The notes under the pieces: model-generated
Seen by the model: the letters and a program-made list of their open reading frames with translations, nothing else
Database searches by the model: none
Told to the model about the DNA's origin: nothing
Part shown: positions 2-22,642 of the stretch, piece by piece
Layout: every line of letters starts with the position of its first letter
How positions within the stretch are numbered: position 1 is the first letter of the stretch
Program-made: the position numbers and the translations under genes
Assembly: GCA_902561765.1 (NCBI GenBank)
Contig: CACEQR010000007.1
Location: forward strand, 1-64,000
Direction of reading: 5' to 3'
DNA: 64,000 nt
Source of the DNA: an uncultured Pelagibacteraceae bacterium
Lineage (GTDB): Bacteria > Pseudomonadota > Alphaproteobacteria > Pelagibacterales > Pelagibacteraceae

Positions 2-394
2 TTTGCATTATTTGCAAGTTTGGTAATATTTTTTGTTAGCGGAGATGGAAAATTTAATACTTTTACAGATCCAACTTTACAATTTATTGTTAGAGAATGG
101 TTTACTAACCCAGTAGAGGCATGGCCCTATGTTTTAATTATGGGAATAGTTGCTTCGATTTCGTTTTTTTGTGTATTTACTGCTTATAGCATTGCCTCAC
201 CATCGGTTGTTTCATTATTTGAGTATTCATACATAGTGTTTGCAATGGTAGCTGGTTATATATTATTTGAAACAATACCAGTGCCAAGAACTTTTCTAGG
301 TGCATCAATAATTATTGGTGCTGGCGTATATATTTATTTTAGAGAAAAAGTCCGAGGACAAATGATTGCTACAGATACACCAGCGAATAGATGA
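2..394 (+). CDS. EamA/DMT-family transporter, C-terminal part (truncated by window start)
   Basis: Open frame runs in from the window edge; hydrophobic helices and a GASIIIGAGVYIYFREK end typical of EamA proteins. Confidence 0.7.
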   Translation, partial: FALFASLVIFFVSGDGKFNTFTDPTLQFIVREWFTNPVEAWPYVLIMGIVASISFFCVFTAYSIASPSVVSLFEYSYIVFAMVAGYILFETIPVPRTFLGASIIIGAGVYIYFREKVRGQMIATDTPANR

Positions 395-1362
395 TAAGAA
401 AAAATTATATTCCAACAATAAATATAAATCCTATTCTAAAAAATAACTTCAATTCAAAAGCAACATTAAAAATTGCAAGGGAAATTGAAAAGGCTTGTGT
501 TGAGGTTGGTTTTTTTCAAATAGTTGGTCATGGAATAAAATTAAAAAAAATAAATAAAGTATGCAAAATCGGAGAAAATTTTTTTAAATCAAATAAGAAC
601 AATAAATTTAAATTGGCTCCAAAGAAATGGAATAAAAGGAGTAAAAATATTTATCGAGGATATTTTCCAAATGATGTTAATGGAAAAGAAGGATTAGACT
701 TAGGTGACTTAAAAGTAACAAAGGATTTTTCAAAAAAAACTAGAAATCAATACATCGAGCATTTAAGTATAGAGAGGTCATTTAATAAGCAATCTATTGC
801 AAAACTAGAAGATTATTTTGAAAATTTATTTAATTTAAGCGAAACTCTTTTTAAAAGTATTATAAAACTTTATAAAAAAGACCCCAATTTATCTAAAAAA
901 GCCTTTTCGAGATTAAAAACACTTAGCACTTTAAGATTTAATTATTACCCAAATCAATCTAAACCAGTTGAAATATCTAAAGAAGATGGGGTTGCACTTG
1001 GATGTGAAACACATGTTGATAGTGGTATTTTCACAGTTTTATATCAAAATAAAAAAGGTGGTCTCCAAGTTCAAAACCGAAAAACAAAAAAATGGCATGA
1101 TGTTCCTTTCAATAAAAATGCCTTGGTAGTTAACACAGGTAGAGCGCTAGAATATTTAAGCAAAGGCAAGTTTAAAGCAACAAATCATAGGGTATTGTGG
1201 AATAAGCAAAAAAGGCTCTCTGTTCCTTTCTTTTTTGAGCCTTCTTATGACTTTAAAATGAATCTTTCCTTTTTAAATAAGCGAAGATTTAGTAACGGTG
1301 GCATCAGATATGATAAATTTCTAAATAAGTCTTTAAAAAAATTCGTTGAATATCAAAGATAA
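391..1362 (+). CDS. 2-oxoglutarate/Fe(II)-dependent oxygenase, isopenicillin-N-synthase-like
   Basis: VEVGFFQIVGHGI N-terminal motif, ETHVDSG (HxD), NTGRALEYLSKGKFKATNHRV (distal His) and RLSVPFFFEP. Confidence 0.85.
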   Translation: MIRKNYIPTININPILKNNFNSKATLKIAREIEKACVEVGFFQIVGHGIKLKKINKVCKIGENFFKSNKNNKFKLAPKKWNKRSKNIYRGYFPNDVNGKEGLDLGDLKVTKDFSKKTRNQYIEHLSIERSFNKQSIAKLEDYFENLFNLSETLFKSIIKLYKKDPNLSKKAFSRLKTLSTLRFNYYPNQSKPVEISKEDGVALGCETHVDSGIFTVLYQNKKGGLQVQNRKTKKWHDVPFNKNALVVNTGRALEYLSKGKFKATNHRVLWNKQKRLSVPFFFEPSYDFKMNLSFLNKRRFSNGGIRYDKFLNKSLKKFVEYQR

Positions 1363-1440: not shown

Positions 1441-1463
1441 ATTAATTTTTAAAGGAGGCTTTA

Positions 1464-2633
1464 ATGAAGTTTGGTTATTTTTGTAATACCACCAATTGGA
1501 CTCATAAACCATATCACCAGCTATTAGATGAGACTAAAGAAATCACAGAATTTTGTGATCAAAATAATTGGAATTCAATATGGTTTACAGAACATCATTT
1601 TAATCATGAGGGAATGGAATCTTGCACAAACCCTTTAATGTTAGGAGCAGATGCTGCAGCAAGAACAAAAAATATAAGAATAGGACAAGCTGCAAACGTA
1701 ATTACTTTTCATAACCCAATAAGATTGGCAGAAGATATTGCAACACTTGATCAACTTTCTAAAGGAAGAGTAGAAGTTGGTGTTGCCAGAGGAGTTTATG
1801 GTCGAGAAGCAATAAATCTAAATAAAGAAGCAGATTTAAAAGATCAGGCAAAAAACTTTAGATTGTTTGCAGAGACATTAGAAATTTTAAAAAAAGCTTG
1901 GTCAGAAAAATTTTTTAATCACGAAGGAGAGTTTTACACTTATCCATCACCTAACTATGTATGGCAACATGATATGAGTCCACCTAGTGAAGAATTTATG
2001 AATATGGAAGATAGTACTATGAAAAAAATTAGTGTTCTGCCTAAGCCGTACCAAAATCCACATCCTCCAATACATCAAGTTGTAGATGGTATAAGATCTA
2101 TTGAGTGGGCTGCAGAAAATAATATTAATGTAATTATGTGGATACCTACTGTTAAAGCACTCAAATTAAGATTTGAAGCATACAAAAATAAAAGATCAGA
2201 AGTTACTAAAAAAAATGTTCCTTTAGGAGAAGGAGTAACTCTTGTTAGAGATATGTTTGTTGCAGACACAATGGAAGAAGCTAGAGAGAAAGCTGGAGAA
2301 CACATGGTAAATTATATGAGATGGGTTTGTCATTGGAGAGGCCTAGGAAATCATATGGATCCAGGTGAAGAACTCCCACAAACAAAAGGTAAATTAGATC
2401 TTCTTAATTATGAGTTTTTACACAAGAGAAATATGTTATTTGGAACTCCTGAATATGTAACAGATAAGATTAAAGAACTTCAATCAGAGCTAAATCTTCA
2501 AAATCTTCAAGTCTGGTCTAACTTTCCAGGTGTTAAACATGAAGATTGTATGAAAAGTATTAAATTATTCACTGAAAAAGTAATGCCCAACTTTAAAGAT
2601 GATCTAGATACTGAAGTTAAAAAAGTATCGTGA
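1464..2633 (+). CDS. LLM-class flavin-dependent monooxygenase (bacterial luciferase-like)
   Basis: MKFGYFCNTTNW..., WFTEHHF, IRLAEDIATLDQLSKGRVEVGVARG; perfect SD AAAGGAGG upstream. Confidence 0.88.
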   Translation: MKFGYFCNTTNWTHKPYHQLLDETKEITEFCDQNNWNSIWFTEHHFNHEGMESCTNPLMLGADAAARTKNIRIGQAANVITFHNPIRLAEDIATLDQLSKGRVEVGVARGVYGREAINLNKEADLKDQAKNFRLFAETLEILKKAWSEKFFNHEGEFYTYPSPNYVWQHDMSPPSEEFMNMEDSTMKKISVLPKPYQNPHPPIHQVVDGIRSIEWAAENNINVIMWIPTVKALKLRFEAYKNKRSEVTKKNVPLGEGVTLVRDMFVADTMEEAREKAGEHMVNYMRWVCHWRGLGNHMDPGEELPQTKGKLDLLNYEFLHKRNMLFGTPEYVTDKIKELQSELNLQNLQVWSNFPGVKHEDCMKSIKLFTEKVMPNFKDDLDTEVKKVS

Positions 2634-4330
2634 TTAAATCCAAGAATACCTTGACCGGTGGTCAAGCGGCAGTCAAATCCCTAAAAAAAGAAAAAGTAAA
2701 ACACGTCTTTGGTTTAATTGGTTCTGCTACAATGGAAATGTTTGATGCGTTGTATCATGAAAAAAAAATTAAATTTATAGGTGTGAGAGATGAAAGAACA
2801 GGAACTCACATGGCTGATGGTTATGCAAGGGCTTCTAATCAACCTGGTGTTATTATTGCTGGGCAAAACGGCCCAGGAGCAACTAATCTTGTTACAGGTA
2901 TTGCTCAAGCAAAAGCTGCATTTTCACCAGTAGTATCAATCGCAGGCTTATATTCTACAAAAGATAAAATGGAAGATGCTTTCCAAGGACTTGATCAACA
3001 GTCACTGTTTAATCCTATAACCAAAAAAACCTGGACTGTAAAAAAGGCAAGCCATATTCCAAAAGCTTTTAGCGATGCCTTCAATCTTGCAATGTCACCA
3101 CGGAGAGGTCCAGTTTGTATTAATCTACCAAGAAATGTACTTTCAGATACTTCAAAATTTAAAATCAATGTAAATAAAAAGTCTTTTAAAATTGAAAGTA
3201 ATTTAAAAAGCAAAAAAGATTTAATTCAGAAAACAACAAAACTTATTCTCAATTCAAAGAAAACTGTAATTGTTGCTGGTGGAGGTATAAAATATAATTC
3301 AAAATTTAAATCTGTAACTGATCTTGCTGAATTTTTAAATGTTCCAATAGTAACAGCCGCTGGACACGGAGATGCGATACCATTTAGTCACAAACTAAAT
3401 GCTGGACAAATGGGGCCAAGAGGCAATTTAGTTGCTTCAAGACTGGTTAAAGAAGCAGAACTTATTATTGCATTAGGAACAAGACTTGGTTTTAATTCTA
3501 CTTTCTATTCCTACGATAATATAAACAAGAAAGCTAAAATTATTCAAGTCGAACTAGAAAAAAAAATGTTAGGAAGATATTTTCCTATTAGTATTGGTAT
3601 TCATGGCGATGCTGCAAATGTGGCAAATCAAATATTGAATGATTTAAAAAAACAAAAGAAAATTTTAAGTTATAAAGAATGGACAAATAATTTTTTATTA
3701 GAAAGATCAAATTTTTTAATAAATAGGGATAATATGAAATCTAAAAATTATCCAATACAACCAAATGGACTATTTAAAGAGTTAAGAAAAGTTCTTCCTA
3801 AAAATTCAGCTATCACACTTGATGCTGGTACACTTTGCCTTCAAGCTACTGATGCTTTAGAGTATTACAATCCTCCTTCTCTTTTTACTCCTTTAGATTT
3901 TGGATTAGTAGGTTTTTCATTTGCTTGTGGTTTAGGCATTAAGGTTGCGAAACCTAATAAAACTGTAGTTAGTTTAATGGGCGATGGTGGATTTGGCATG
4001 ACTATTTCAGAATTAAGCACTGCCGTAGAGCATGGAATAAATACAATTACAATAGTTATGAATAATAAAAGTTGGGGTGCCGAAAAGGCTTACCAAAAAG
4101 ATTTTTATGGTGAAAGGTATTTGGGCGCAGATATTCAAAGTCCTCCTTTTGATGAGGTTGCTAAACTTTATGGTGCAAAAGGAATTAAAGTGAAAAAATT
4201 ATCAGAGGTAAATCAAGCTGTTAAAAGTGCACTTAAAGCAAACAAACCAGTTGTTATAGATGTTGATGTAGATCCAAAAGCATTATACAGTTTTAGAAGA
4301 GATAGCTTTACACATCGTATTAAAAAATGA
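2630..4330 (+). CDS. TPP-dependent enzyme of the acetolactate synthase superfamily, substrate unknown
   Basis: N-terminal TPP domain (VFGLIGSATMEMFDAL, GQNGPGATNLVTGIA), C-terminal MGDGGFGMTISELSTAVEH...NNKSWG; GTG start overlaps preceding stop. Confidence 0.85.
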   Translation: MIKSKNTLTGGQAAVKSLKKEKVKHVFGLIGSATMEMFDALYHEKKIKFIGVRDERTGTHMADGYARASNQPGVIIAGQNGPGATNLVTGIAQAKAAFSPVVSIAGLYSTKDKMEDAFQGLDQQSLFNPITKKTWTVKKASHIPKAFSDAFNLAMSPRRGPVCINLPRNVLSDTSKFKINVNKKSFKIESNLKSKKDLIQKTTKLILNSKKTVIVAGGGIKYNSKFKSVTDLAEFLNVPIVTAAGHGDAIPFSHKLNAGQMGPRGNLVASRLVKEAELIIALGTRLGFNSTFYSYDNINKKAKIIQVELEKKMLGRYFPISIGIHGDAANVANQILNDLKKQKKILSYKEWTNNFLLERSNFLINRDNMKSKNYPIQPNGLFKELRKVLPKNSAITLDAGTLCLQATDALEYYNPPSLFTPLDFGLVGFSFACGLGIKVAKPNKTVVSLMGDGGFGMTISELSTAVEHGINTITIVMNNKSWGAEKAYQKDFYGERYLGADIQSPPFDEVAKLYGAKGIKVKKLSEVNQAVKSALKANKPVVIDVDVDPKALYSFRRDSFTHRIKK

Positions 4331-4914
4331 AATTAAAATTAAGAAAATTTAATAAATTTGTAGACAAAACTTTTATTGAGGGTGGAAAAGAAGCTAAAGA
4401 TCCAGTTTTAATGGTTTCTGTAGCAGCAGTTTTTAAAAATCCTTGGGATGGGAAAGGTTTTGTAGAAGATTTAAAACCCATAATTTTAGATCTAGCTCCA
4501 AAACTTGGAGATTTACTTGTCCCAGAACTAATTAAAGAAATAGGTTCTCCTGATAAAATATTAGCATATGGAAAAGCCGGTGTAGTTGGATTAAATGGAG
4601 AAATTGAGCATGCGTCTGCTTTCATTCACACATTGAGATTTGGTAATAAATTTAGAGATGCAGTCGGTGGTACATCTTACCTAAGTTTTACGAATACAAG
4701 GGGTCCTGCCGGATCAAAAATATCAATTCCAATGATGCATAAAACTGACTCAGGTTTAAGACCTTATTATTTAACACATGAGTTTACAATACATGATGCT
4801 CCATTTGATGATGAAATTGTAATCGCAATAGGAGGGGCCTCAACTGGAAGAGCACATGCAAGAACGGGTGATAGGTACCAAGACATGAAGGAAATGGGCA
4901 TTGAACCAAAGTAA
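4327..4914 (+). CDS. amino acid synthesis family protein (DUF1185 / AA_synth)
   Basis: ILAYGKAGVVGLNGEIEHASAFIHTLRFGNKFRDAVGG...STGRAHARTGDRYQDMKEMG, characteristic of the family; ATGA overlap with upstream gene. Confidence 0.75.
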   Translation: MKLKLRKFNKFVDKTFIEGGKEAKDPVLMVSVAAVFKNPWDGKGFVEDLKPIILDLAPKLGDLLVPELIKEIGSPDKILAYGKAGVVGLNGEIEHASAFIHTLRFGNKFRDAVGGTSYLSFTNTRGPAGSKISIPMMHKTDSGLRPYYLTHEFTIHDAPFDDEIVIAIGGASTGRAHARTGDRYQDMKEMGIEPK

Positions 4915-4916
4915 TA

Positions 4917-5690
4917 ATGATCAATGCAACAGACTCTAAAGGTACATTCTATATATTAAATAAAAAAGATAGAACTCCAATCATATTTATCCACGGTGTG
5001 GGACTTGATCACTCTATATGGGACCCACAAATAAATGAATTTGATAATACTGTTTTAATTTATGACATTCTAGGTCATGGCAAAACACCTTTAAACAAAA
5101 ATGATTTAAGTTTCGATGACTTTTCGGATCAAATAATAAACTTAATTGATGAATTAAAATTTAACAAAGTTCACTTAGTTGGTTTTTCTATAGGTTCATT
5201 AATTGCAAGAAATTTTGCCACAAGATTTAATGATAGATTGGCCTCTCTCACACTTTTGTGTTCTATATTTAATAGATCTGTTAAAGAGCAGAAAATAGTA
5301 AATGATAGATTTGAACAAACCAAAAAAGATCATAAACTTACTAAAGACGCTCTTAAAAGATGGTTTACAGAAGATTTTTTAAATAAAAATCCAGATATCT
5401 CAGATAAAATTTTCACTATTCTTCAAAACAATAATATGAATAATTTTATAAAGATCTATTCCTTATTTGTGAAACATCAAGACAATGAAAAATTTGAAAA
5501 CATTAATACTAAAACTTTGGTGATAACGGGTGAAGGTGATGTAGGATCAACTCCAGAAATGTCAATTAATTTAAGCAAAAAAATTAAAAATTCCGTTGTA
5601 AAAATTATTCCTAAAGGAAAACATCTCTGTAGTATTGAATGCTCAGATGATGTAAATAATACAATAAAAGATCATATACAAAATGCCTGA
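4917..5690 (+). CDS. alpha/beta-fold hydrolase
   Basis: PIIFIHGVGLDHSIWDPQ, nucleophile elbow GFSIGS, catalytic GKHLCSIE. Confidence 0.85.
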   Translation: MINATDSKGTFYILNKKDRTPIIFIHGVGLDHSIWDPQINEFDNTVLIYDILGHGKTPLNKNDLSFDDFSDQIINLIDELKFNKVHLVGFSIGSLIARNFATRFNDRLASLTLLCSIFNRSVKEQKIVNDRFEQTKKDHKLTKDALKRWFTEDFLNKNPDISDKIFTILQNNNMNNFIKIYSLFVKHQDNEKFENINTKTLVITGEGDVGSTPEMSINLSKKIKNSVVKIIPKGKHLCSIECSDDVNNTIKDHIQNA

Positions 5691-7164
5691 ATTAAAAAAA
5701 TATAAAATGTTTATTGGAGGAGAATGGGTTGACTCTGATACTAAAAAAACTTTTGAAACATTAAACCCAGAAGATAATAAACCATGGGCTGTTGTTCCAG
5801 AAGCAAGTGCCAATGATGTCGATAAAGCAGTTAAAGCTGCTCAGAAAGCTTTTGAAGGGGATTGGCCAAAAATATTACCGAGAGAAAGAGCTAAATTTTT
5901 AAGAGCTATTGCAAACAAACTTAGAGACAATGCAGAATTGCTTGGCAAAATTGAAACAATTGATACTGGAAAGCTTTTTAGAGAGACGAACAAACAAGCA
6001 AACTATATAGCAGAATATTATGACTACTACGCTGGTATGGCTGATAAAGTTGAAGGTACTGTTCTTCCAATAGACAAACCAAACATTCAAGCAATAACTT
6101 CAAGAATACCTATAGGTGTTATTGCAGCAATTGTGCCATGGAACTCCCAAATGTTTTTAACAGCAACAAAACTTGCTCCTGCTCTAGCTATGGGAAATAC
6201 CGTTGTAATTAAATCCTCTGAGCTTGCCCCTGCTGTGATGTTTGAATTTGCAAAACTTATAGAAGAAACTGGTATTCCAAAAGGAGTAGTAAATGTGATT
6301 ACGGGTTTCGGAGATCCATGTGGCAAAGCTTTAACTACACATAATTTAGTTGAGAAGGTTGCCTTTACAGGAGGGCCTGAAACTGCAAGGCATATTATTA
6401 GAAACTCTGCAGAAAACTTGTCTGAGGTTAGTTTAGAATTAGGCGGAAAAAGCCCGGTTGCGGTATTTGATGATGCTCATCAAGAAAATGCTATTAATGG
6501 TATTACTGCAGGTATTTTTGGAGCGAGCGGACAAAGTTGTATTGCAGGTTCAAGGCTGTATTTGCAAAATGGAATTTATGATAAGTTTCTTGATAAACTT
6601 ATAAAAAGAGCTGAAAAAATAAAAATAGGTGCACCTATGGATCCAGAAACTGAAATGGGTCCTTTAAGTAACTTTAAGCAATTAGAAATTATTGAAAAAA
6701 ATATAAAAAAAACAATAGAACAAGGTGGAAAAGTTAGATGTGGTGGTAAAAGACATCCGTTTTCTAATGAAGGTTATTATTTTCCTCCAACAATAATTGA
6801 ATGTGATAACCATAATCTTCCGACTGCTGAAAATGAATTATTTGGGCCAGTTTTATCTGTAATGAAATTTGATGATGAAAAAGAAGTCATAGAAAAAATG
6901 AATGACAATCAATATGGGTTATCTTCTGGTGTATATACCAGTGACTTTGCTAGAGGTTTAAGAGTATCTAATGCTATTAGGGCAGGAATAACATTTGTTA
7001 ACACGTATAGATTAATTTCACCTTCTGCACCTTTTGGAGGAATTAAAGATAGCGGATATGGAAAGGAAGCGGGAATGGAATCAATTAAAGATTATACTAG
7101 AGTAAAAACTACATGGTATTACACATCTGATGAACCAACTTTAGATCCTTTCTCTATAAGATAA
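5683..7164 (+). CDS. aldehyde dehydrogenase (NAD(P)+)
   Basis: ALDH motifs VPWNSQMF, VAFTGGPET, ELGGKSP, GASGQSCIAGSR, FGPVLSV. Confidence 0.93.
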   Translation: MPELKKYKMFIGGEWVDSDTKKTFETLNPEDNKPWAVVPEASANDVDKAVKAAQKAFEGDWPKILPRERAKFLRAIANKLRDNAELLGKIETIDTGKLFRETNKQANYIAEYYDYYAGMADKVEGTVLPIDKPNIQAITSRIPIGVIAAIVPWNSQMFLTATKLAPALAMGNTVVIKSSELAPAVMFEFAKLIEETGIPKGVVNVITGFGDPCGKALTTHNLVEKVAFTGGPETARHIIRNSAENLSEVSLELGGKSPVAVFDDAHQENAINGITAGIFGASGQSCIAGSRLYLQNGIYDKFLDKLIKRAEKIKIGAPMDPETEMGPLSNFKQLEIIEKNIKKTIEQGGKVRCGGKRHPFSNEGYYFPPTIIECDNHNLPTAENELFGPVLSVMKFDDEKEVIEKMNDNQYGLSSGVYTSDFARGLRVSNAIRAGITFVNTYRLISPSAPFGGIKDSGYGKEAGMESIKDYTRVKTTWYYTSDEPTLDPFSIR

Positions 7165-7167
7165 TAT

Positions 7168-8025
7168 TTGTCAACTAAACACACATTACTTATTTTATTT
7201 GTAGTTTTTTTATTGGGAAGTGCTTATCCAACAGGAAAGCTTGGATTAAATGACTCAATTCCTCCAGTTCTTTTTGGAGCTTTAAGAATGGCAGTTGTAT
7301 TTATATGTTTAGTTCCTTTCTTTAAATTTTATATTCCTGAAAAAAAATTTATTATTCCTTTAATTGGATTTTCAATCTGTTTTGGTGTTGCAGTAAATAT
7401 GTTTTTGTATTTATCTATTAATGCCTCAAGCATACTAGCTCCAATAACAATAGGTGCTCAGCTTTCAATTCCGTTTGGAATAATATTAAGTTCTATATTT
7501 TTAAATGAAAAAATAAGTTACAAAAAATGGCTTCTTATTATGACATCATTTTTTGGAATTGTAATTCTCGCTTTTGATCCAAAAGTTTTAGAAGAAATAA
7601 TAGGATCGCTCTTAATTTGCGCTATGGCCTTTTTTTATGGGTTGTCACAAGTTTTTTCAAGATATCTAAAAGATTTAGATGTTAAGTATACAAATACAAT
7701 AATGAGTTTCACAGGATTTGTAATTTTAACTATATTATCATCAGTATTTGAAGGTAATACTTTTCAAACTATAAAAAATATTAGTTTAGAAAGCTGGTTT
7801 ACAGTTTTGTATGCTGGAGCAATTATTTCCCTACTTGGACATTTAATGATGTTTTATTTATATAAATTTTATCCTCTTGATATGGTTTTACCTTTCTATG
7901 CATTATTCCCAGTCTTTGGTTTAATACTTACTTTTTTTATTTTTGGTGAGATTCCATCTTTCATCACGATATTAGGTGGAATAATTGTTATAACTTCTGT
8001 ATTTTTTGCCCAAAAAATGAGATAA
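7168..8025 (+). CDS. EamA/DMT-superfamily transporter
   Basis: About 10 hydrophobic helices, duplicated EamA architecture; TTG start 3 nt after ALDH stop. Confidence 0.8.
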   Translation: MSTKHTLLILFVVFLLGSAYPTGKLGLNDSIPPVLFGALRMAVVFICLVPFFKFYIPEKKFIIPLIGFSICFGVAVNMFLYLSINASSILAPITIGAQLSIPFGIILSSIFLNEKISYKKWLLIMTSFFGIVILAFDPKVLEEIIGSLLICAMAFFYGLSQVFSRYLKDLDVKYTNTIMSFTGFVILTILSSVFEGNTFQTIKNISLESWFTVLYAGAIISLLGHLMMFYLYKFYPLDMVLPFYALFPVFGLILTFFIFGEIPSFITILGGIIVITSVFFAQKMR

Positions 8026-8073
8026 TTTTCCCATTGAAAATTAAAACTAATAAGATTTAATTTTGTTTATATA

Positions 8074-8087
8074 AATTGTTAACAATT
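8074..8087. promoter_or_regulatory. 14-bp perfect palindrome AATTGTTAACAATT, candidate operator
   Basis: Perfect inverted repeat immediately upstream of the RBS and ATG (8099) of the solute-binding protein gene. Confidence 0.4.
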
Positions 8088-8098
8088 AGAGGGAATAT

Positions 8099-9289
8099 AT
8101 GAAAAAACTAGTATTGGCGATGTTTGTATTTGTTTCTTGCTTTGCATCAAAAGCATATTCAGATGGACATGGCATAAAAATGGGAGTTATTTTAGGATTT
8201 ACAGGTCCTATTGAGTCCCTAACTCCAGCGATGGCTGCTTCAGCTGAGCTTGCTTTCAAAGAAGCTTCAGACTCAGGTTCGCTACTTGGTGGAAAGAAAA
8301 TTTCTGTTGAAAGAGCAGACTCAACTTGTGTTGATTCAGCTGCCGCAACAGCTGCTGCTGAAGGTTTAATATCTGGCGGTGTAGTAGCAATTATGGGTGC
8401 TGACTGTTCTGGTGTAACTGGAGCTATTGCAACTAATGTTGCTGTGCCAAATGGTGTTGTTATGATTTCGCCATCTGCGACTTCTCCAGGATTAACTGAT
8501 CTTAAAGATAATGGATTTTTCTTTAGAACTGCTCCATCAGATGCAAGAGGAGGTCAAGTATTAGCGGATATTACTAAAGACAGAAAAGTTAAAAGTATTG
8601 CAGTTACTCACACAAATAATGACTATGGAAAAGGTTTAGCAGATGTATACGTTGCAGCTGTTAAAGCTCATGGGATAAATGTAACAGTTGTAACTGCTCA
8701 CGAAGAAGGTAAAGGTGACTATGGTGCCGAAGTTGCTACATTAGCAGCTGCTGGTGGAGATGCTTTAGCTGTATTGGGTTACTTAGACCAAGCAGGTGGA
8801 AGTATTATTGATGGTTCATTAGATTCAGGTGCATTTGATGTATTCGTATTATCTGATGGTATGATCGGTGACTCTTTAACAGACAGATTTGGTAATGATT
8901 TAAATAAGTCTTTTGGATCACTGCCAGGATCAATGGGTAAAGGCGCTACAATATTTAAAGATGTTGCTGGTGCTGCAGGAATTGACTCCTCAGGTCCTTA
9001 CACTTCAGAGTCTTATGACGCTGCAGCTTTGATCGTTTTAGCAATGCAAGCTGGTGGTAAAGCTGATAGAGCAACTGTGCAAGCAAATGTAATGTCAGTT
9101 GCGAATGCCCCAGGAACAAAAATTTATCCTGGCGAATTGAAAAAAGCTTTAGATTTATTAGCTAGTGGAAAAGCTGTAAATTATGAAGGAGCTTCAAGTG
9201 TAGAACTTACAGATGTTGGAGAAGCATCTGGTGCCTTTATTGAAAAAGAAATTAAAGGCGGTAAGTTTAAAGACAAAAAACAAAGATAA
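8099..9289 (+). CDS. ABC transporter substrate-binding protein, branched-chain/LivK-like
   Basis: Signal peptide MKKLVLAMFVFVSCFASKAYS; IKMGVILGFTGPIESLTPAMAASAELAFKEA; periplasmic type I fold motifs. Confidence 0.88.
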   Translation: MKKLVLAMFVFVSCFASKAYSDGHGIKMGVILGFTGPIESLTPAMAASAELAFKEASDSGSLLGGKKISVERADSTCVDSAAATAAAEGLISGGVVAIMGADCSGVTGAIATNVAVPNGVVMISPSATSPGLTDLKDNGFFFRTAPSDARGGQVLADITKDRKVKSIAVTHTNNDYGKGLADVYVAAVKAHGINVTVVTAHEEGKGDYGAEVATLAAAGGDALAVLGYLDQAGGSIIDGSLDSGAFDVFVLSDGMIGDSLTDRFGNDLNKSFGSLPGSMGKGATIFKDVAGAAGIDSSGPYTSESYDAAALIVLAMQAGGKADRATVQANVMSVANAPGTKIYPGELKKALDLLASGKAVNYEGASSVELTDVGEASGAFIEKEIKGGKFKDKKQR

Positions 9290-9302: not shown

Positions 9303-9338
9303 AACTCCAGCGATGAAAATCGCTGGAGTTTTTTTTTA
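9303..9338 (+). terminator. intrinsic terminator after the substrate-binding protein
   Basis: AACTCCAGCGAT-GAAA-ATCGCTGGAGTT 12-bp stem with tetraloop then a T run. Confidence 0.92.
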
Positions 9339-9950: not shown

Positions 9951-11321
9951 TTATTGTTTAATAATTTTTTCTGGAATTATTCCTTGAGGTCTAAATCTCA
10001 TTATCAAAAGAAGTCCAATACCCACCAATAAAAACCTAAAATATGGTGCACTATTTATTAAATGAATTTTAATCTCATTCGTTTCAGGTAAATGAGCTGT
10101 AAATAAATTTATGAAGAATAAAGCAATAGGTGCTGCTTCTACCCACAAAAACCATACAACAAATCCTCCTAGAATTGCTCCAAAATTATTTCCAGTACCA
10201 CCGACAATTACCATAACCCAAATTACAAATGTATATCTCATAGGTCTATAGCTACCTGGAGTAAATAGCCCATCATTAGTTACCATCATGGCTCCGGCAA
10301 TTCCAACTATTGCAGATCCTAGAATAAATATAAACAAATGTTGTTTAACTACATTCTTACCCATTGCACTTGCGGCTTCTTCATTATCTCTGATTGCTCT
10401 CATCATTCTACCCCAAGGTGAATAAAGAGCTTTTTGAGTAATTATTAATAAAATTATAACTACAACTAAAAACATACCCGCAAAACAAAGTTTTACATAA
10501 ACAGACGATGCATCAATTACTAATTGATTTAAAATATCTTGTCTCTCCGACAACGAATTTGCTAAATCTAATTTTGCTGAGTGAAATTTTTCAACTAAAT
10601 TTATAAACCAAGGAGAAGTTTGAAGGTCAATTTCGTAAGGAGCTGGTCTTTTTAATCCAATAACATTTTTTACACCTCTCGCTAACCAATCTTCATGTTT
10701 AATAATAGAAACAACAATTTCAGCTATTAATAATGTAGCAATAGCTAAATAATCTGCCCTTAATCCTAATGCAACTTTTCCTACAACAAATGCTAACCCT
10801 GCAGCAAAAAGTCCTCCTACTATCCATGAGAATAAAACTGGTAACCCAAGTCCTCCAAGAAACCCTGTCTTCGCAGGATCAACAGCCTCTATTTGTTCAA
10901 TTGCAGGTCCAGCAATTATTTTTATTAGAATTAATCCAACAATAATTACTCCAGCTATTAAATAATTTCTTTTGTTAGATTTTTGAATATTTTTTAAAAT
11001 ATACCTTGTAGAAAAAATCATTAATATAATTATTCCAAGGCAAGTCATCATATTAACTCCTCCAACACTCCAAGCCTCAGGGACAGGAGCTACAGATACT
11101 AATACAACTGCCAAACCACCTAATGCCGTGTAACCCATGATTCCAAAGTTTATTAAACCAGCATAACCCCATTGAATATTTGCTCCCAAAGTCATTACTG
11201 CAGAAATCATACAATAATTAAAAATTGTTAGTGCAATGGACCAAGACTGGAAGATACCAACTAAAATAATTAAAAGCATCATTATCGAATATGCTACAAT
11301 TATATTTAAATAATTTCTCAT
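9951..11321 (-). CDS. branched-chain amino acid-type ABC transporter permease (LivM-like)
   Basis: GYAGLINFGIMGYTALGG, LRADYLAIATL, RAIRDNEEAASAMGKN motifs. Confidence 0.88.
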   Translation of the reverse strand: MRNYLNIIVAYSIMMLLIILVGIFQSWSIALTIFNYCMISAVMTLGANIQWGYAGLINFGIMGYTALGGLAVVLVSVAPVPEAWSVGGVNMMTCLGIIILMIFSTRYILKNIQKSNKRNYLIAGVIIVGLILIKIIAGPAIEQIEAVDPAKTGFLGGLGLPVLFSWIVGGLFAAGLAFVVGKVALGLRADYLAIATLLIAEIVVSIIKHEDWLARGVKNVIGLKRPAPYEIDLQTSPWFINLVEKFHSAKLDLANSLSERQDILNQLVIDASSVYVKLCFAGMFLVVVIILLIITQKALYSPWGRMMRAIRDNEEAASAMGKNVVKQHLFIFILGSAIVGIAGAMMVTNDGLFTPGSYRPMRYTFVIWVMVIVGGTGNNFGAILGGFVVWFLWVEAAPIALFFINLFTAHLPETNEIKIHLINSAPYFRFLLVGIGLLLIMRFRPQGIIPEKIIKQ

Positions 11322-12328
11322 ATGCGTTTTCCTTCAAATATGCCTGACGGTCTAAATATTAAAACAATAACTAGTATCGAAAAAGAAATCGCAAATTTGT
11401 AATCAGTTGATAATAACTGCATCAATGAATTTGGTTCTAGAGACTCTGGCAAAATATAAACCAAAAATCTTTTATATGCATAAGTCAAAAATATTTCAGC
11501 AAATGCTATAACATAACCACCAAAGAATGCTCCGTATGGATTTCCTATTCCACCTACTATAGCAGCAGCAAAGATAGGTAACATGTTATTAAAATATACG
11601 AATGGCCTATAACTTTTATCTAAACCGTAAAGAATCCCACCAATTGTTGCTAATATTCCAGCTATAATCCAAGTAATTAGAACTACTTTTTTTGGATCTA
11701 TTCCAGAAAGAAGTGCTAAATCCTCATTATCTGAGTAGGCCCTCATACTAGTTCCAGTTTTAGTTTTATTTAAAAACCAAAACATAATAGCAACAACAAT
11801 AATAGTAACTACAATTGTTATCATTTGTGTAGATTTAATTGTCAAACCTTCGGCAAGACCTGTCATTTCTTTAAATTCAGTTGCTTTTAAAATAAATTTT
11901 TCACCATCTAAGAATCTGCGATCTGTAGGTCCAATTACAATCCTTATGACTGCTTGGGTCACAAACATTACCCCAACACTAACCATAGCAAGCTGTACTG
12001 GTGGACTTTTTTTAATTCTGTAATATTTAAAAACTGTTTGATCTATTAACAGCATGTATAAAATCATCATAAAAATTGCAAAAGGAATAGTGAGCAAAGC
12101 TGTAGGCAGAAAACCAAAATTAATTCCAATAGATTGGAAGTAATAAGTCAAAAGCACAGCAAACATTGTGCCAAATGACATCATGTCTCCAGTTGCAAAG
12201 TTAGCAAATCTTAAAATACCGTATATTAATGTTACAAAAATTGCTCCAAGAGCTAATTGAGAGCCATAAGTTAAGGCTGGAATAATTGTATAATTCAATA
12301 AAACTATTACTGCATTAATTAAATCCAT
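11318..12328 (-). CDS. branched-chain amino acid-type ABC transporter permease (LivH-like)
   Basis: LRFANFATGDMMSFG, MRAYSDNEDLALLSGIDPKKV, AAAIVGGIGNPYGA. Confidence 0.88.
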   Translation of the reverse strand: MDLINAVIVLLNYTIIPALTYGSQLALGAIFVTLIYGILRFANFATGDMMSFGTMFAVLLTYYFQSIGINFGFLPTALLTIPFAIFMMILYMLLIDQTVFKYYRIKKSPPVQLAMVSVGVMFVTQAVIRIVIGPTDRRFLDGEKFILKATEFKEMTGLAEGLTIKSTQMITIVVTIIVVAIMFWFLNKTKTGTSMRAYSDNEDLALLSGIDPKKVVLITWIIAGILATIGGILYGLDKSYRPFVYFNNMLPIFAAAIVGGIGNPYGAFFGGYVIAFAEIFLTYAYKRFLVYILPESLEPNSLMQLLSTDYKFAISFSILVIVLIFRPSGIFEGKRI

Positions 12329-12329
12329 A

Positions 12330-13037
12330 CTAAGCTCCTAAAAAAGATCTCCTAACTTCTGGATCATTTAATAATTCCTTGCCAGACCCCTCAAATTTAT
12401 TTTCACCAGTTACAAGCACATATCCTCGATCAGAAATGCTTAAAGCCTGTTTTGCATTTTGTTCGACCATAATGATTGCTACTTTTGTATTTTTAACTCT
12501 AATAATATGTTCGAATAATTCATCCATAACTATTGGTGAAACTCCTGCTGTAGGCTCATCTAACATAAGAACTGATGGTTTAATCATTAGAGCCCGTCCC
12601 AAAGCTACTTGTTGTCTTTGCCCTCCTGATAATTGTCCAACTACTTGATCTTTTTTTTCTCTTAAAATTGGAAATAGATCATATATTTCTTCGATAACAT
12701 TATTAATATTATCTGTTCTTAAAAAAGCACCAACCTCTAAATTTTCTTTTACAGTAAGTTCTGCAAAAACATTTCTAGTTTGTGGTACAAATGATATTCC
12801 CTTTTTAACTCTTTCTTGAGGAGTTAGTTTAGAAATATCTTCTCCATCAATTGAAATATTGCCTGATTTAAGATTTAATAATCCAAGCATTGCTTTCATT
12901 GCTGTAGATTTGCCAGCTCCATTTGGTCCAAGTATTGCAACTATCTCACCCCTATTAACATTAATAGTACATGAGCTAATAATATCAGGACCATCGCCGT
13001 ATCCTCCTGTCATTTTATTTCCCTCAAAAAATGCCAT
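12330..13037 (-). CDS. ABC transporter ATP-binding protein (LivF-like)
   Basis: Walker A GPNGAGKST, signature LSGGQRQQ, Walker B LMLDEPTAGVSP. Confidence 0.93.
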   Translation of the reverse strand: MAFFEGNKMTGGYGDGPDIISSCTINVNRGEIVAILGPNGAGKSTAMKAMLGLLNLKSGNISIDGEDISKLTPQERVKKGISFVPQTRNVFAELTVKENLEVGAFLRTDNINNVIEEIYDLFPILREKKDQVVGQLSGGQRQQVALGRALMIKPSVLMLDEPTAGVSPIVMDELFEHIIRVKNTKVAIIMVEQNAKQALSISDRGYVLVTGENKFEGSGKELLNDPEVRRSFLGA

Positions 13038-13814
13038 TTACTTCTTTCTACCTAAATAACTATCTATAACTTTTTCATTTTTCTTAACTTCATCTGAAGT
13101 TCCCTCAAAAAGAACAGAACCTTCAGACATTACAATGACCGGATCACACATTCTGCTTATAAAATCCATATCATGCTCAATCATACAAAAAGTATAGTTT
13201 TTTTCTTTGTTAAGTCTTAAAATTGCTGTCCCTAAGTCTTTTAATAATGTTCTATTAACGCCTGCTCCAACTTCATCCAATAAAACAAGCTTTGCATCCA
13301 CCATCATTGTTCTTCCAAGTTCTAGCAACTTTTTTTGGCCTCCAGATAAATTACCAGCACGTTCATTGGCGAGATGTTTAAGATTTAAAAACTCGGTTAC
13401 TTCGTATGCTTTTGCTCTAATTATATCTTCTTCTTGTTTAATTAAGTTTGGTTTTAAAAGGGCATTTATTAAAATTTCCCCACTTTGGTTACCTGGCACC
13501 ATCATTAAATTTTCAAGAACAGTCATATTTGAAAATTCGTGAGCTATTTGAAAAGTTCTTAGTAAACCTTTTGAGAAAAGCTCATGAGATGGGACGTTTG
13601 TTATTTCTTCTTTATTAAATAATACTTTTCCATCTGATGATTTAAGATTGCCCGCTATAAGGTTAAATAGAGTAGTTTTGCCTGATCCATTCGGACCAAT
13701 TATTCCTGTAATTGAACCTTCTTTTATTTTTAATGAGCAATTTGATACAGCTGCCAAACCACCAAAATATTTTGATAAGTTATCAATTTGCAGAATATTT
13801 GAAGCTTGCTGCAT
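13038..13814 (-). CDS. ABC transporter ATP-binding protein (LivG-like)
   Basis: Walker A GPNGSGKTT, LSGGQKKLLELGR, VLLDEVGAGVN. Confidence 0.93.
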   Translation of the reverse strand: MQQASNILQIDNLSKYFGGLAAVSNCSLKIKEGSITGIIGPNGSGKTTLFNLIAGNLKSSDGKVLFNKEEITNVPSHELFSKGLLRTFQIAHEFSNMTVLENLMMVPGNQSGEILINALLKPNLIKQEEDIIRAKAYEVTEFLNLKHLANERAGNLSGGQKKLLELGRTMMVDAKLVLLDEVGAGVNRTLLKDLGTAILRLNKEKNYTFCMIEHDMDFISRMCDPVIVMSEGSVLFEGTSDEVKKNEKVIDSYLGRKK

Positions 13815-16040: not shown

Positions 16041-16363
16041 ACCGCAAAACTATTTAATGTTGCTAAAATTATAGCAGATAATATGGTCGGATAAACTAAA
16101 TTTCTTTTAGTGACATAAAAAATTAATATTGATAATAAAATGACAATTATCCTTAAAATATAGTGTACATCTGAAAGATCTCCTGATGGAAAAATTAACA
16201 TTCTTGAAATTAAAGCTGCAAGAGTTGAATATGCTATACAATTAAACCATTTATAAATTTTAGATGTCTCTCCTATCTTTTCTGATGTTAAAGCACCAAG
16301 AAATCTTGAAATATAAGTTGCAAGAGAAGTTACTAAAATTGCTAAAACAATATTAACTGCCAT
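16037..16363 (-). CDS. azlD: AzlD-family branched-chain amino acid exporter subunit
   Basis: Small 4-helix membrane protein ATYISRFLGAL...YSTLAALISRMLIFP; overlaps the AzlC gene. Confidence 0.72.
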   Translation of the reverse strand: MAVNIVLAILVTSLATYISRFLGALTSEKIGETSKIYKWFNCIAYSTLAALISRMLIFPSGDLSDVHYILRIIVILLSILIFYVTKRNLVYPTILSAIILATLNSFAV

Positions 16364-17057
16364 AAACCTCCCCTATAAAGTAAGCAATTGAACCAGCTAC
16401 CAATCCTCCAAGTAAAACACTCCACTCAGGTGAAAAAAAATAAAAAATTGGACCTAAAAATGCGCCCAGGATAATCGCAGAAGAAAGTTGTATAGTTTTC
16501 ATAACTCCTATCATTGCACACATAAAATAAATTGGATTTACTATAGCAAGCCCAATTATCATATCTTTGCTTAAAAAGTCGGCAGCATAAAATCCTAATA
16601 CTGTTGAAAAAATGGCAATTAACCAAGTGGCAGTTCCTATACCAATCCAAAAATCTATTCTATATTTTCTCTCAATATCCTCATAATTACTTTTTAAAAT
16701 CAACCATGATGAAACAGCTACGAAGTGACAAGATATATAATATTTCCATCTAGGTTGGCTTTCATGTTTAAGTAATGGCATAATTGAAACTGTCATTGGA
16801 AATAGTCTAGAATTTACTAACCATACTGCTAAAAAAATATTTATAAGAGACGCACCAATAAGCATTGACTCCGCCATCACTAATGATCCTGGGAGAGCGT
16901 AAGTTAAAAGTGTTGAGAAAATACTTTCTTGTATATTAAATCCTAAATTTTTTAACAAGGCACCTATAGCAATGAAACTAGCTCCTAATGCAATTGCCGG
17001 ACTATCAAATTTTTTTGAGCAGACTATTCCTTTGATAAAATATTTAAAGTTTATCAT
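16353..17057 (-). CDS. azlC: AzlC-family branched-chain amino acid exporter subunit
   Basis: AIALGASFIAIGALLKNLGF, YALPGSLVMAESMLIGASLINIFLAVWLVNSRLFPMTVSIMPLL motif. Confidence 0.8.
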   Translation of the reverse strand: MINFKYFIKGIVCSKKFDSPAIALGASFIAIGALLKNLGFNIQESIFSTLLTYALPGSLVMAESMLIGASLINIFLAVWLVNSRLFPMTVSIMPLLKHESQPRWKYYISCHFVAVSSWLILKSNYEDIERKYRIDFWIGIGTATWLIAIFSTVLGFYAADFLSKDMIIGLAIVNPIYFMCAMIGVMKTIQLSSAIILGAFLGPIFYFFSPEWSVLLGGLVAGSIAYFIGEVYGS

Positions 17058-17842
17058 TAACCGCCTAAGAATAGACGGCCAACATCTGGATTATTTAAAA
17101 GATCATCTCCTTTACCTGCAATAGCTGTTTCTCCTGAAACTAAAACATAACCAATATCAGCAAACTCTAAACCTTTTTTGGCATTCTGCTCAACCAATAT
17201 AATTGTTTTTTTTTCATTTTTTTGAAGATCATCTAATATCTCAAAAACCATTTGAATATATCTTGGCTCAAGCCCAATTGATGGTTCATCAACAAGTAAA
17301 ATAGAAGGTTTCATTACTAGGGCTCGAGAAATTTCTAAAAGTCTTCTTTCTCCACCCGATAATACTTTTGCAGGTTGATTTCTTCTGTTTCTTAATCTTT
17401 CATATTTTTGAAGAACTCTCTCAGCTTCTTCAAAAGACTCCTCTGTTTTATCTTTAATATAACCACCCATTAAAAGATTTTCCTCTACTGTCATATCTGG
17501 AAAAACCGAATTATCTTGCAAAATATATGCTATCCCCTCAGATTTAAGTTTTTCTGCAGGACTGAGGTTGGTTATTTCTTTTCCATCAATCTCTATTTTT
17601 CCTGAAAAGATATTTGTAAAACCATATATTGAATGCAGTATAGTTGATTTTCCTGCACCGTTTGGACCAATCAAACAAAGAGATTGTGCTTTACTTACAA
17701 ATAAATCAAAATTGTGTAGTATTTCCATCTTACCATAACCAGCTGATAAACCTTTGATAGTTAGGTGAACATTTTCAGACGATAGTTTTTTTAAATCCTC
17801 TGCTATAGGAGCTTTACCAAGAACTTCGTATTGATTTGCCAT
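17057..17842 (-). CDS. livF: branched-chain-type ABC transporter ATP-binding protein (LivF)
   Basis: GPNGAGKSTILHSIYGF, LSGGERRLLEISRAL, ILLVDEPSIGLEP. Confidence 0.92.
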   Translation of the reverse strand: MANQYEVLGKAPIAEDLKKLSSENVHLTIKGLSAGYGKMEILHNFDLFVSKAQSLCLIGPNGAGKSTILHSIYGFTNIFSGKIEIDGKEITNLSPAEKLKSEGIAYILQDNSVFPDMTVEENLLMGGYIKDKTEESFEEAERVLQKYERLRNRRNQPAKVLSGGERRLLEISRALVMKPSILLVDEPSIGLEPRYIQMVFEILDDLQKNEKKTIILVEQNAKKGLEFADIGYVLVSGETAIAGKGDDLLNNPDVGRLFLGG

Positions 17843-18582
17843 TATTGAGCTCCTAAATAAGCGTCAATCACACGCTTATCATTTTTAATTTCATCAGGTG
17901 TTCCATTTGCAAGCATTTTTCCATGCGCAAGACAAAAGATACTTTCAGCTAATTGCATTATTACTCTCATATTATGTTCAATAACAAGTAGAGTAATTCC
18001 AAAATCTTGATTTACTTTTATCAATCTATCAATAATTCCATTTATTAATGTAGGGTTGATACCTGCGGTTGGTTCGTCCAGTAATAACATCTCAGGCTCA
18101 TTCATTAATGCCATTGCTAATTCTAATAACTTCTGCTGACCAAATGATAAATCTCCCGCTCGTAGTTTTCTTTTTTGATATAATCCAACAAAATTTAATA
18201 AATTTTCAGCTTTTTCTGTAAGATTTTGTGGTATCTGGGAAAATATAGAAACTAAACTTTCATCGCTTGCTTTGTGACTTATAAGCATATTGTCTACACA
18301 ATTCAATTTTCCATAAATTCTTGTTTGCTGAAAAGTTCTAAGCAAACCAAGTTTAGCTATTACAGGGACTGGTAATTCAGATACTTCTTTACCATTAAAT
18401 TTAATTGACCCTTGATCTATAGGGTATGTTCCAACTATAGAATTAAACAATGTTGTTTTTCCAGATCCATTTGGTCCAATTAAACCTACGATTTTTCCTT
18501 TTTCAACTGACATGGATATATCAACATTCGCTTTAACCCCACCAAATGACTTACTCACATTACTTACCTCTAAAATACTCAT
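17842..18582 (-). CDS. livG: branched-chain-type ABC transporter ATP-binding protein (LivG)
   Basis: GPNGSGKTTLFNSIVG, LSFGQQKLLELAMAL, LLLDEPTAGINP. Confidence 0.92.
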   Translation of the reverse strand: MSILEVSNVSKSFGGVKANVDISMSVEKGKIVGLIGPNGSGKTTLFNSIVGTYPIDQGSIKFNGKEVSELPVPVIAKLGLLRTFQQTRIYGKLNCVDNMLISHKASDESLVSIFSQIPQNLTEKAENLLNFVGLYQKRKLRAGDLSFGQQKLLELAMALMNEPEMLLLDEPTAGINPTLINGIIDRLIKVNQDFGITLLVIEHNMRVIMQLAESIFCLAHGKMLANGTPDEIKNDKRVIDAYLGAQ

Positions 18583-19628
18583 TTAAGTGTAACCTGTGCT
18601 TTCCGATCTGCTTCATCTACAACTTCACCAAATCTCTCTGGATACTTTTCTCTCAACCAGCCCATAATCCCTTCAGGGAAATAAATAACAATTACAACAA
18701 TCAAAACTCCAAGAGCAACATACTGCCAACCTAAAAAGAATGTCCAAAATCCCTCTTTAAATATATGAAATAAAGTTGCACCAATTACTGGGCCCCACAA
18801 CGTTCCTTTTCCTCCTAGTATGGCCATCAAGACCATGAATACTCCCATTTCTCTTCCATCAAAAGCAACATCGGTTGAGTCTATATATCCAACTAATCCA
18901 CCCATGATACCTCCAGCCAATCCACAGAAAAATGCAGAAATCATCCAACCAATAATTTTATATTTCATTGTTTGAATACCCATTGCTTCAGCTTTATCTT
19001 CATTATCTCTAATTGCATTAAGAACTAGTTTGAATCTTGTTGAGTAAATTGCTTTGACTGCAAGGAACGTGAATACCAAAACTATAAAACTACAAAAATA
19101 GAAAAACTCACCTCTTGCTTCTAATCTATCGACATTAGGAAACGGAGGTGTTGTAAAACCTTGTCCTGCTCCAATTATTTCTATTCCTCCAGAAATTTCT
19201 CCAGCCGCAACTCCTAAACCTAATGTACAAATTGCAAAATAATGTCCTCTTAAACCTAAAATCGAATAACCAATTAAACCAGCAACTATTGCTGGGACTA
19301 CCGCAGCGACCGCCAAACCAACTGCAAAACCTTGAAAGAATTGAGCAGGTGTATGAACAAAAGTTTTCTCTCCACCCCCTTCAGTCCACTCTCCTAGAGG
19401 AAAAAACATTCCTACTTGAACTGAGGCACATAAATACATTCCTAGCCCATAAAACAAAATATTTCCGAAGGTATTATAACCCATTTCACCACCCTGAACA
19501 TTCCATGTGATAGCTAGAATTATTAATATACAAAGAATTGATAGCTGAACTTTAAATGCTGGAAATATAAAAGGTGCAGCAATACCGAATATTAGAATAG
19601 CTCCATATAAAATAATATTTTTATTCAT
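18579..19628 (-). CDS. livM: branched-chain-type ABC transporter permease (LivM)
   Basis: LRGHYFAICTLGLG, LNAIRDNEDKAEAMGIQTMKYK, GGKGTLWGPVIGA. Confidence 0.9.
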   Translation of the reverse strand: MNKNIILYGAILIFGIAAPFIFPAFKVQLSILCILIILAITWNVQGGEMGYNTFGNILFYGLGMYLCASVQVGMFFPLGEWTEGGGEKTFVHTPAQFFQGFAVGLAVAAVVPAIVAGLIGYSILGLRGHYFAICTLGLGVAAGEISGGIEIIGAGQGFTTPPFPNVDRLEARGEFFYFCSFIVLVFTFLAVKAIYSTRFKLVLNAIRDNEDKAEAMGIQTMKYKIIGWMISAFFCGLAGGIMGGLVGYIDSTDVAFDGREMGVFMVLMAILGGKGTLWGPVIGATLFHIFKEGFWTFFLGWQYVALGVLIVVIVIYFPEGIMGWLREKYPERFGEVVDEADRKAQVTLK

Positions 19629-20521
19629 TATTTTAAATATTCTCTTTTTTTTGAAAGTTTAAATCTTCTGTAAACTAAAATTAAGACTAACAGTAAGAAC
19701 ACAGAACCAATTCTAAATTCTGTACCTAAAATATAATCTGCAAACTCCTCAAATACACCTAAACCCATACCTGACATTGCAACACCAGGTAAATTTCCAA
19801 GTCCAGCAACAATTACAATCATAAAAGACCTAATTGTATAAGGTAATCCCATATAAGGGTGAATTGTGAAAGTAATTGAAATTAAAGCTCCAGCTACTCC
19901 GCATAAAGCTGCGTTAATACCAAAAGTAGCTGCATATACCTTCTCTGTATCTACACCTAAAATCTTGGCTGCTCTTGCATTTTGAGCAGTTGCTCTAATA
20001 GCCCTTCCAAGCTTAGATTTTTTCATATAAATTACCAACCCGATAGCAAAAACAATACTTATAAATGCTGAAAAAATTTTTGAATTTGGCAATGTAACAG
20101 AGTTATCAAACAACATCGTTGTTCCATATCCTGAGTTTGCAAGAACTACATCTGCACCAAATGCAAAGTTCATTAATTGCATAAATAAAATACTTATTCC
20201 AAAAGTTGCCAAAATAGAAATAAATAGATCTCTATCTACAACTTTATTAATAACCAACTTGTAAATAATTACCCCAACAAAATACATTATTATTGGTGAA
20301 ACTATCACTCCCCACGCAGGATGAATTCCATACAGATACATAAAGTATGCTATGTAACCTCCTAATATAACTAAATCACCTTGAGCAATGTTAATTATAT
20401 TCATGACTCCCCATTGAAGAGCCATTCCGTAAGCTATTAGCGCAAATAAAATTCCAAGTAACAAACCATCTAGTACAGCTTGTAAAGTTAACATCGGAAC
20501 TTGGAAAATTAAAAAATCCAT
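19628..20521 (-). CDS. livH: branched-chain-type ABC transporter permease (LivH)
   Basis: GVMNIINIAQGDLVILGGYIAYF, IRATAQNARAAKILGVDTEKVY, VAGLGNLPGVA. Confidence 0.9.
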   Translation of the reverse strand: MDFLIFQVPMLTLQAVLDGLLLGILFALIAYGMALQWGVMNIINIAQGDLVILGGYIAYFMYLYGIHPAWGVIVSPIIMYFVGVIIYKLVINKVVDRDLFISILATFGISILFMQLMNFAFGADVVLANSGYGTTMLFDNSVTLPNSKIFSAFISIVFAIGLVIYMKKSKLGRAIRATAQNARAAKILGVDTEKVYAATFGINAALCGVAGALISITFTIHPYMGLPYTIRSFMIVIVAGLGNLPGVAMSGMGLGVFEEFADYILGTEFRIGSVFLLLVLILVYRRFKLSKKREYLK

Positions 20522-20546
20522 AATTTCTAAATGCTATATAAAAAAA

Positions 20547-20578
20547 AGCCCCCTATTGCTAGGGGGCTAAGATTTTTT
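20547..20578. terminator. intrinsic terminator/attenuator between the SBP gene and livH
   Basis: AGCCCCCTA-TTGC-TAGGGGGCT 9-bp stem flanked by A-run (left) and T-run (right), so a terminator on either strand. Confidence 0.85.
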
Positions 20579-20582
20579 TTTA

Positions 20583-22524: not shown

Positions 22525-22528
22525 GATG

Positions 22529-22575
22529 GATAGTCCTAAAAAACCGGGAGCTAAAGATGGCTAGATAGGACTATC
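22529..22575 (-). promoter_or_regulatory. structured leader of the LysE-family gene with SD inside a 10-bp stem
   Basis: GATAGTCCTA (22529-22538) / TAGGACTATC (22566-22575) perfect inverted repeat; minus-strand AGGA lies in the 3' arm upstream of the ATG at 22524. Confidence 0.45.
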
Positions 22576-22642
22576 TAAAAATGATAATATCATAGGTATA
22601 TAAATTTGCATTATTTATTTATTTCAAGATTGCAGGAATTTT

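Follow-up and report, generated by a model that had tools for sequence, protein, structure and literature searches.

A conserved LLM oxygenase-DUF1185 operon in Pelagibacteraceae: a candidate trigonelline-type catabolic route with an optional TPP enzyme

A group of closely spaced genes was analysed in a 64,000-nucleotide stretch of DNA (the window; positions 1 to 64,000 of contig CACEQR010000007.1, assembly GCA_902561765.1) from an uncultured Pelagibacteraceae bacterium. The genes encode an LLM (bacterial-luciferase family) flavin monooxygenase, a thiamine pyrophosphate (TPP)-dependent enzyme, a DUF1185/AA_synth protein, an alpha/beta hydrolase and an aldehyde dehydrogenase (ALDH), followed by an EamA/DMT transporter and a branched-chain-type ABC binding protein (Table 1). 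An earlier reading, made from the letters without database searches (the sequence-only reading), had described a translationally coupled catabolic operon with a binding-protein gene and a strong terminator at its end. All seven genes were found at the coordinates and on the strand it had given in the list of open reading frames (ORFs), and Pfam returned the same families. The junction distances were -4 (LLM/TPP), -4 (TPP/DUF1185), +2 (DUF1185/hydrolase), -8 (hydrolase/ALDH), +3 (ALDH/EamA) and +73 nt (EamA/binding protein), which bore out the tight coupling, and the stem followed by T8 bore out the terminator. A 2-oxoglutarate (2OG)-Fe(II) oxygenase gene was located on the same strand, 101 nt upstream of the LLM gene. 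No RNA elements were detected around the operon.

Table 1. Features of the operon and its surroundings (window positions).
Feature	Position	Strand	Basis and remarks
2OG-Fe(II) oxygenase (PF03171/PF14226)	391..1362	+	Pfam; putative accessory upstream of TPP-containing operons
Shine-Dalgarno-like AGGAGG	1453..1458	+	sequence; 5 nt ahead of the LLM start
LLM flavin monooxygenase, proposed ring-opening oxygenase	1464..2633	+	PF00296; own clade; AlphaFold model
TPP-dependent enzyme, acetolactate synthase/Xsc superfamily, optional component	2630..4330	+	family search; cofactor motifs
DUF1185/AA_synth protein, LLM-associated subfamily	4327..4914	+	PF06684; motif HTLxFGNxxR
Alpha/beta hydrolase, proposed TgnD role	4917..5690	+	family search; nucleophile motif GFSIG at residue 89
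ALDH, TgnC-like	5683..7164	+	identity to Tgn-type ALDHs; tree; catalytic motifs
EamA/DMT transporter, adjacent, variable, not core	7168..8025	+	PF00892
Branched-chain-type ABC binding protein (Peripla_BP_6), core SAR11 gene, not operon-specific	8099..9289	+	family search; orthologue survey
Intrinsic terminator	9303..9330	+	perfect 12-bp stem, then T8
LivM, LivH, LivF, LivG, partner permease/ATPases of the binding protein	9951..13814	-	ORFs; neighbours of the binding protein in operon-less genomes too

Of 101 relatives, 38 had the DUF1185 gene, each in a single copy. Within the genus of the window genome the operon occurred in 26 of the 61 sampled genomes (about 40%). The related organisms in the locus list were Pelagibacteraceae, which fits the SAR11 origin assumed by the sequence-only reading. 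The same neighbours surrounded DUF1185 at the 30 short and 20 longer loci inspected. In all 20 longer loci the LLM gene was followed by the TPP gene or directly by DUF1185, then by the hydrolase and the ALDH gene (the latter unless the stretch ended). A second family of the order kept the same core at 44-68% identity with no EamA gene adjoining, and the core LLM-(TPP)-DUF1185-hydrolase-ALDH was also found in other Alphaproteobacteria and in Acidimicrobiia. Gene order is conserved far beyond chance, and the reading as a single catabolic operon is supported.

The TPP gene was missing from the operons of eight genomes (G002, G012, G015, G028, G030, G046, G057 and G058), of which G012 is complete. 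Whole-genome searches of 15 genomes detected TPP orthologues (about 1000-1090 bits) only inside operons, all other matches being paralogues of about 310 bits or less. Relocation of the gene elsewhere in the TPP-less genomes, complete G012 included, was ruled out by this result. A contig-wide locus scan found no TPP gene in 63 SAR11 loci, a count that is a sampling effect, the 80 loci of the scan being those closest to one TPP-less relative. Because the TPP gene is missing from several operons and its orthologues are found only inside operons, LLM-DUF1185-hydrolase-ALDH is the conserved core and the TPP gene is an add-on. The EamA gene, which is missing from many homologous operons, and the binding-protein gene lie outside this core. 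The cleavage of a 2-oxo intermediate by the TPP enzyme, proposed by the sequence-only reading, is unlikely as an obligatory step because many otherwise identical operons do without the gene. The 2OG-Fe(II) oxygenase gene stood directly 5' of the LLM gene in 10 of 10 long TPP-containing loci of the genus, and it was also located upstream in 10 of 56 TPP-less SAR11 loci.

The TPP enzyme shares its superfamily and cofactor motifs (E55 and GDGG/NN) with Xsc and acetolactate synthase. It differs from both in scoring below every NCBIfam cut-off listed (388 bits versus 676.4 for Xsc, TIGR03457; 392 versus 538 for AHAS), and its orthologues form a separate group that has an operon context of its own. 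In other Alphaproteobacteria (L114-L116), clusters of the type TgnC-LLM-DUF1185-hydrolase-TPP encoded enzymes sharing 60-61% identity with the window TPP enzyme, versus 51% in the sister family; the LLM of these clusters is of a different type (none was recognised in L115). Because the enzymes of these clusters are closer to that of the window than those of the sister family, the pattern points to horizontal exchange and to a real functional link between the TPP enzyme and such gene sets.

The binding protein had been linked by the sequence-only reading to import of the substrate, a link that found no support. Its orthologues were present in 73 of the 101 relatives regardless of the operon, and within the genus in 21 of 26 operon carriers and 23 of 35 operon-less genomes. 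A role as dedicated importer is ruled out as specific, the gene being about as common without the operon. Three operon-less loci (L219, L220 and L222) showed the same binding-protein/LivMHFG arrangement with the operon position empty or holding other genes, and G046 carried operon and binding protein on separate contigs. The transporter locus is core, and the operon sits next to it at a changeable site, in the manner of a cassette. At the operon position of L219, a gene for a 1139-aa protein lies between EamA and the binding protein; its product has the same length as the protein encoded at 27573-30992 of the window. Further along the window, a second branched-chain-type ABC set with its own binding protein (assigned by eye) occupies 16353-21821 (-), and an rhtB small RNA (RF01814, 77 bits) at 22511-22593 (-) is located upstream of a LysE/RhtB-like exporter gene (21910-22524, -).

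Plasmids searched by tblastn with the DUF1185 protein contained clusters of the same gene types. A RefSeq-annotated cluster on a plasmid of Acinetobacter sp. PK01 (L064) contained DUF1185, an alpha/beta hydrolase, the tgnA reductase, the tgnB LLM and tgnC, annotated as (Z)-2-((N-methylformamido)methylene)-5-hydroxybutyrolactone (MFMB) dehydrogenase, with a succinate-semialdehyde dehydrogenase (SSADH) gene nearby. The same gene order was repeated in Rhizobium etli, Leisingera and Chimaeribacter and, by sequence match, in Paraburkholderia and on S. meliloti pSymA. With this tgn set (tgnA-F, Acinetobacter baylyi ADP1 type) the window operon has in common a DUF1185 protein, an alpha/beta hydrolase, an LLM oxygenase and a TgnC-type ALDH in one operon, the ALDH and DUF1185 proteins being homologous over their full length. 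The window DUF1185 protein was 57-60% identical to members of Tgn-type clusters, and the ALDH, which carries the catalytic GQSC and ELGG motifs, was 49-52% identical to Tgn-type ALDHs. In the ALDH tree, enzymes of window-type and TgnB-type clusters were intermixed: the ALDHs of L097, L138 and L170 stood beside TgnC (support 99/99), and the cluster-type label had to change three times or more along supported branches. One dehydrogenase type thus serves both kinds of LLM. No TgnE-type SSADH was found among the ORFs of the operon, the rest of the genome not having been searched.

In the tgn pathway, TgnA/TgnB opens the aromatic ring (PMC8269262), and TgnF, a DUF1185 homologue, stimulates the oxidation of succinate semialdehyde by TgnE (PMC7913881). 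Apart from tgn, no named pathway emerged from publications on DUF1185 and LLM genes, and the statement that DUF1185 has no assigned reaction was upheld. The motif HTLxFGNxxR was present in 48 of 50 DUF1185 sequences of such clusters. The solved structures SPO0826 (2QTP) and BB2672 (3BYQ) share the Pfam family and fold, and their genes are also near branched-chain-type ABC genes, but both lack this motif of the LLM-associated subfamily. Three further observations were made on tgn and DUF1185 loci. In Sulfitobacter (L070, 8423-9585), paired DUF1185 genes stand beside genes for 6-hydroxynicotinate reductase and a molybdopterin enzyme, which again connects DUF1185 with the breakdown of pyridine rings. 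Next to the tgn cluster of Acinetobacter, purU, folD and sarcosine-oxidase-like (N-methylglutamate-dehydrogenase-like) genes (L064, 770-7724) are compatible with use of N-methyl products. Rhizobiales plasmids (L058, L061, L068 and L069) carry a further subtype, flavin reductase-ALDH-LLM-hydrolase with DUF1185, mostly together with a carboxymuconolactone decarboxylase-type gene.

We consider it an even prospect that the genes at 1464-7164 constitute a Tgn-like pathway of the trigonelline type. Its substrate would be an N-heterocycle, probably one that is N-methylated and carboxylated; the plankton osmolyte homarine and trigonelline are examples. LLM-based oxidative opening of an N-heterocycle, in line with the sequence-only reading, is the best analogy. 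A pyridinium carboxylate would be favoured as substrate by the kinship of the ALDH and DUF1185 proteins with the tgn set and by the high level of homarine in marine particles (up to 67 nM, versus 1-300 pM trigonelline; PMC8269262). From homology we infer five steps, the substrate and the TPP step being likewise proposals. The LLM, using reduced flavin mononucleotide (FMNH2) made elsewhere in the cell, would open the ring oxidatively to an N-formyl amino-aldehyde, and the TgnC-like ALDH would convert the aldehyde or lactol to an acid. The alpha/beta hydrolase would then split off the N-formyl/amine moiety, which would yield formate, a small amine and either a semialdehyde or a 2-oxo acid. The DUF1185 protein, as TgnF counterpart, may help to handle the product of this step. 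Where a TPP enzyme is encoded, it would process a carbonyl product further by C-C cleavage or ligation.

Several observations weigh against this proposal. The window LLM shared no more than 24-29% identity with TgnB types. In a tree of 62 rows, a branch of 2.21 changes/site lay between all window-type LLMs (SAR11, Rhodospirillales, Kiloniellales, Rhodobiaceae and Acidimicrobiia; support 97/94) and every TgnB type. By its phylogeny the LLM belongs to a separate, deeply split clade, and orthology with TgnB was ruled out by this tree. One genome (G691) combined a canonical gene for TgnB with an LLM cluster of the window type, though a divergent one, which suggests different substrates for the two. 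No PF01613 flavin reductase (TgnA type) is linked to the window operon; it further differs from the tgn set in having no GntR regulator, in containing the TPP enzyme in addition and in its diverged hydrolase. The hydrolase, the fastest-evolving member of the operon, was 21-27% identical to Tgn-type hydrolases (with a second subtype reaching 31%), although of the same superfamily. Finally, LLM-DUF1185 sets were also found with carnitine-type genes (L067) and with MttB, because of which the substrate class may instead be non-aromatic quaternary amines. Since the ALDH tree mixes the two cluster types and the LLM tree separates them, the downstream enzymes are best read as shared and the ring-attacking enzyme as swapped.

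A two-component oxygenase needs a flavin reductase. PF01613 was detected in none of the 61 genus genomes searched, complete G012 included. Another source of FMNH2 must exist, for instance PF03358 reductases. These were found in most, not all, relatives and were undetected in the 84%-complete window genome. In favour of the proposed route, homologous clusters with window-type LLMs had a linked PF01613 reductase in L097 (together with a Rieske oxygenase) and L139. The TgnC-DUF1185-TPP cluster of L115 is also linked to such a reductase. The AlphaFold model of the LLM (pLDDT 85) showed an ordinary luciferase fold, and a fold search gave no closer functional match. The label 'RcaE-like' for an LLM on a Peribacillus plasmid (35% identity) was dropped, because in the fold search the solved RcaE structures came no higher than 29th, with identities of 15-17%. 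The window genome carries a second LLM (28% identical to TgnB3) on contig C24 (L230, 2411-4849), beside an alpha/beta hydrolase gene and a 3-hydroxyacyl-CoA-dehydrogenase-like gene; the carnitine-type LLM clusters L067 and L232 are similar to it.

Tentatively, the operon might be the SAR11 form of the homarine catabolic (hom) pathway (Ferrer-Gonzalez et al., 2026, Nat Microbiol 11:1531), in which case only the TPP variant and the LLM phylogeny would be new. The hom operon, reported in environmental bacteria, has a marine N-methylpyridinium carboxylate as its substrate. As cited in PMC13390433, the same work ties homarine catabolism in environmental bacteria to Mgd, and homarine is far more abundant at sea than trigonelline (PMC8269262). 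However, the window genome yielded no recognisable locus for N-methylglutamate dehydrogenase; the best match, a sarcosine-oxidase-like locus, was unsupported as such, with no methylamine genes adjoining. The hom genes are reportedly organised as a homABCDER operon, with SAR11 said to be among the carriers.

A non-aromatic quaternary amine of the carnitine or betaine family, in place of a pyridine ring, is an unlikely candidate substrate. In its favour are the genes for thioesterase, TauD and GMC proteins that several SAR11 have upstream, MttB genes near the L138 and L116 clusters, and carnitine-type genes around TgnB3 LLMs. Such neighbours vary, however, and remain where the operon is missing (L219), and the ALDH and DUF1185 proteins go with the tgn set. 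Somewhat more doubtful still is the degradation of trigonelline itself, with a non-orthologous LLM in place of TgnB and a generic cellular reductase in place of TgnA. This reading would agree with the ALDH and DUF1185 kinship and with family f185, in which one genome (G678) has a window-type LLM and two (G587 and G829) have TgnB, as in displacement, but G691 holds both types, trigonelline is scarce in seawater particles and the TPP enzyme would be left unexplained. A Rut-like pyrimidine or nucleobase ring-opening pathway (rutABCDEFG), already rejected by the sequence-only reading, is ruled out by gene content and of negligible probability: the likeness of the LLM to RutA and of the alpha/beta hydrolase to RutD is one of kind only, the hydrolase scoring 64.7 bits against a RutD cut-off of 238.5, and the operon has no isochorismatase (RutB), RutC-type protein, reductase (RutF) or permease.

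The claim of an undescribed pathway stood in part. The genes co-occur across genomes, and the LLM, not a TgnB orthologue, belongs to a distinct clade, but the ALDH and DUF1185 types, and perhaps that of the hydrolase, have a precedent in tgn, and part of the pathway may already be known through the 2026 homarine work. What appears new here is the LLM clade, an oxygenase without linked reductase and the optional TPP enzyme, on a known trigonelline-type ring-opening set. More speculatively, the TPP-containing form could be a separate, undescribed SAR11 pathway. In it, a new LLM subfamily would work without a dedicated flavin reductase to open the ring of an N-heterocyclic osmolyte that is abundant in the sea, and a new reaction of the TPP enzyme would then salvage the carbonyl product. 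Two testable questions are isolated by this analysis, namely the role of the HTLxFGN-type DUF1185 and how an LLM oxygenase works where no PF01613 reductase is found. SAR11 are among the most abundant cells of the ocean. If the proposed route is correct, an operon in about 40% of the genomes of one genus would tie SAR11 to plankton N-heterocyclic osmolytes and would show the fate of much dissolved organic nitrogen.

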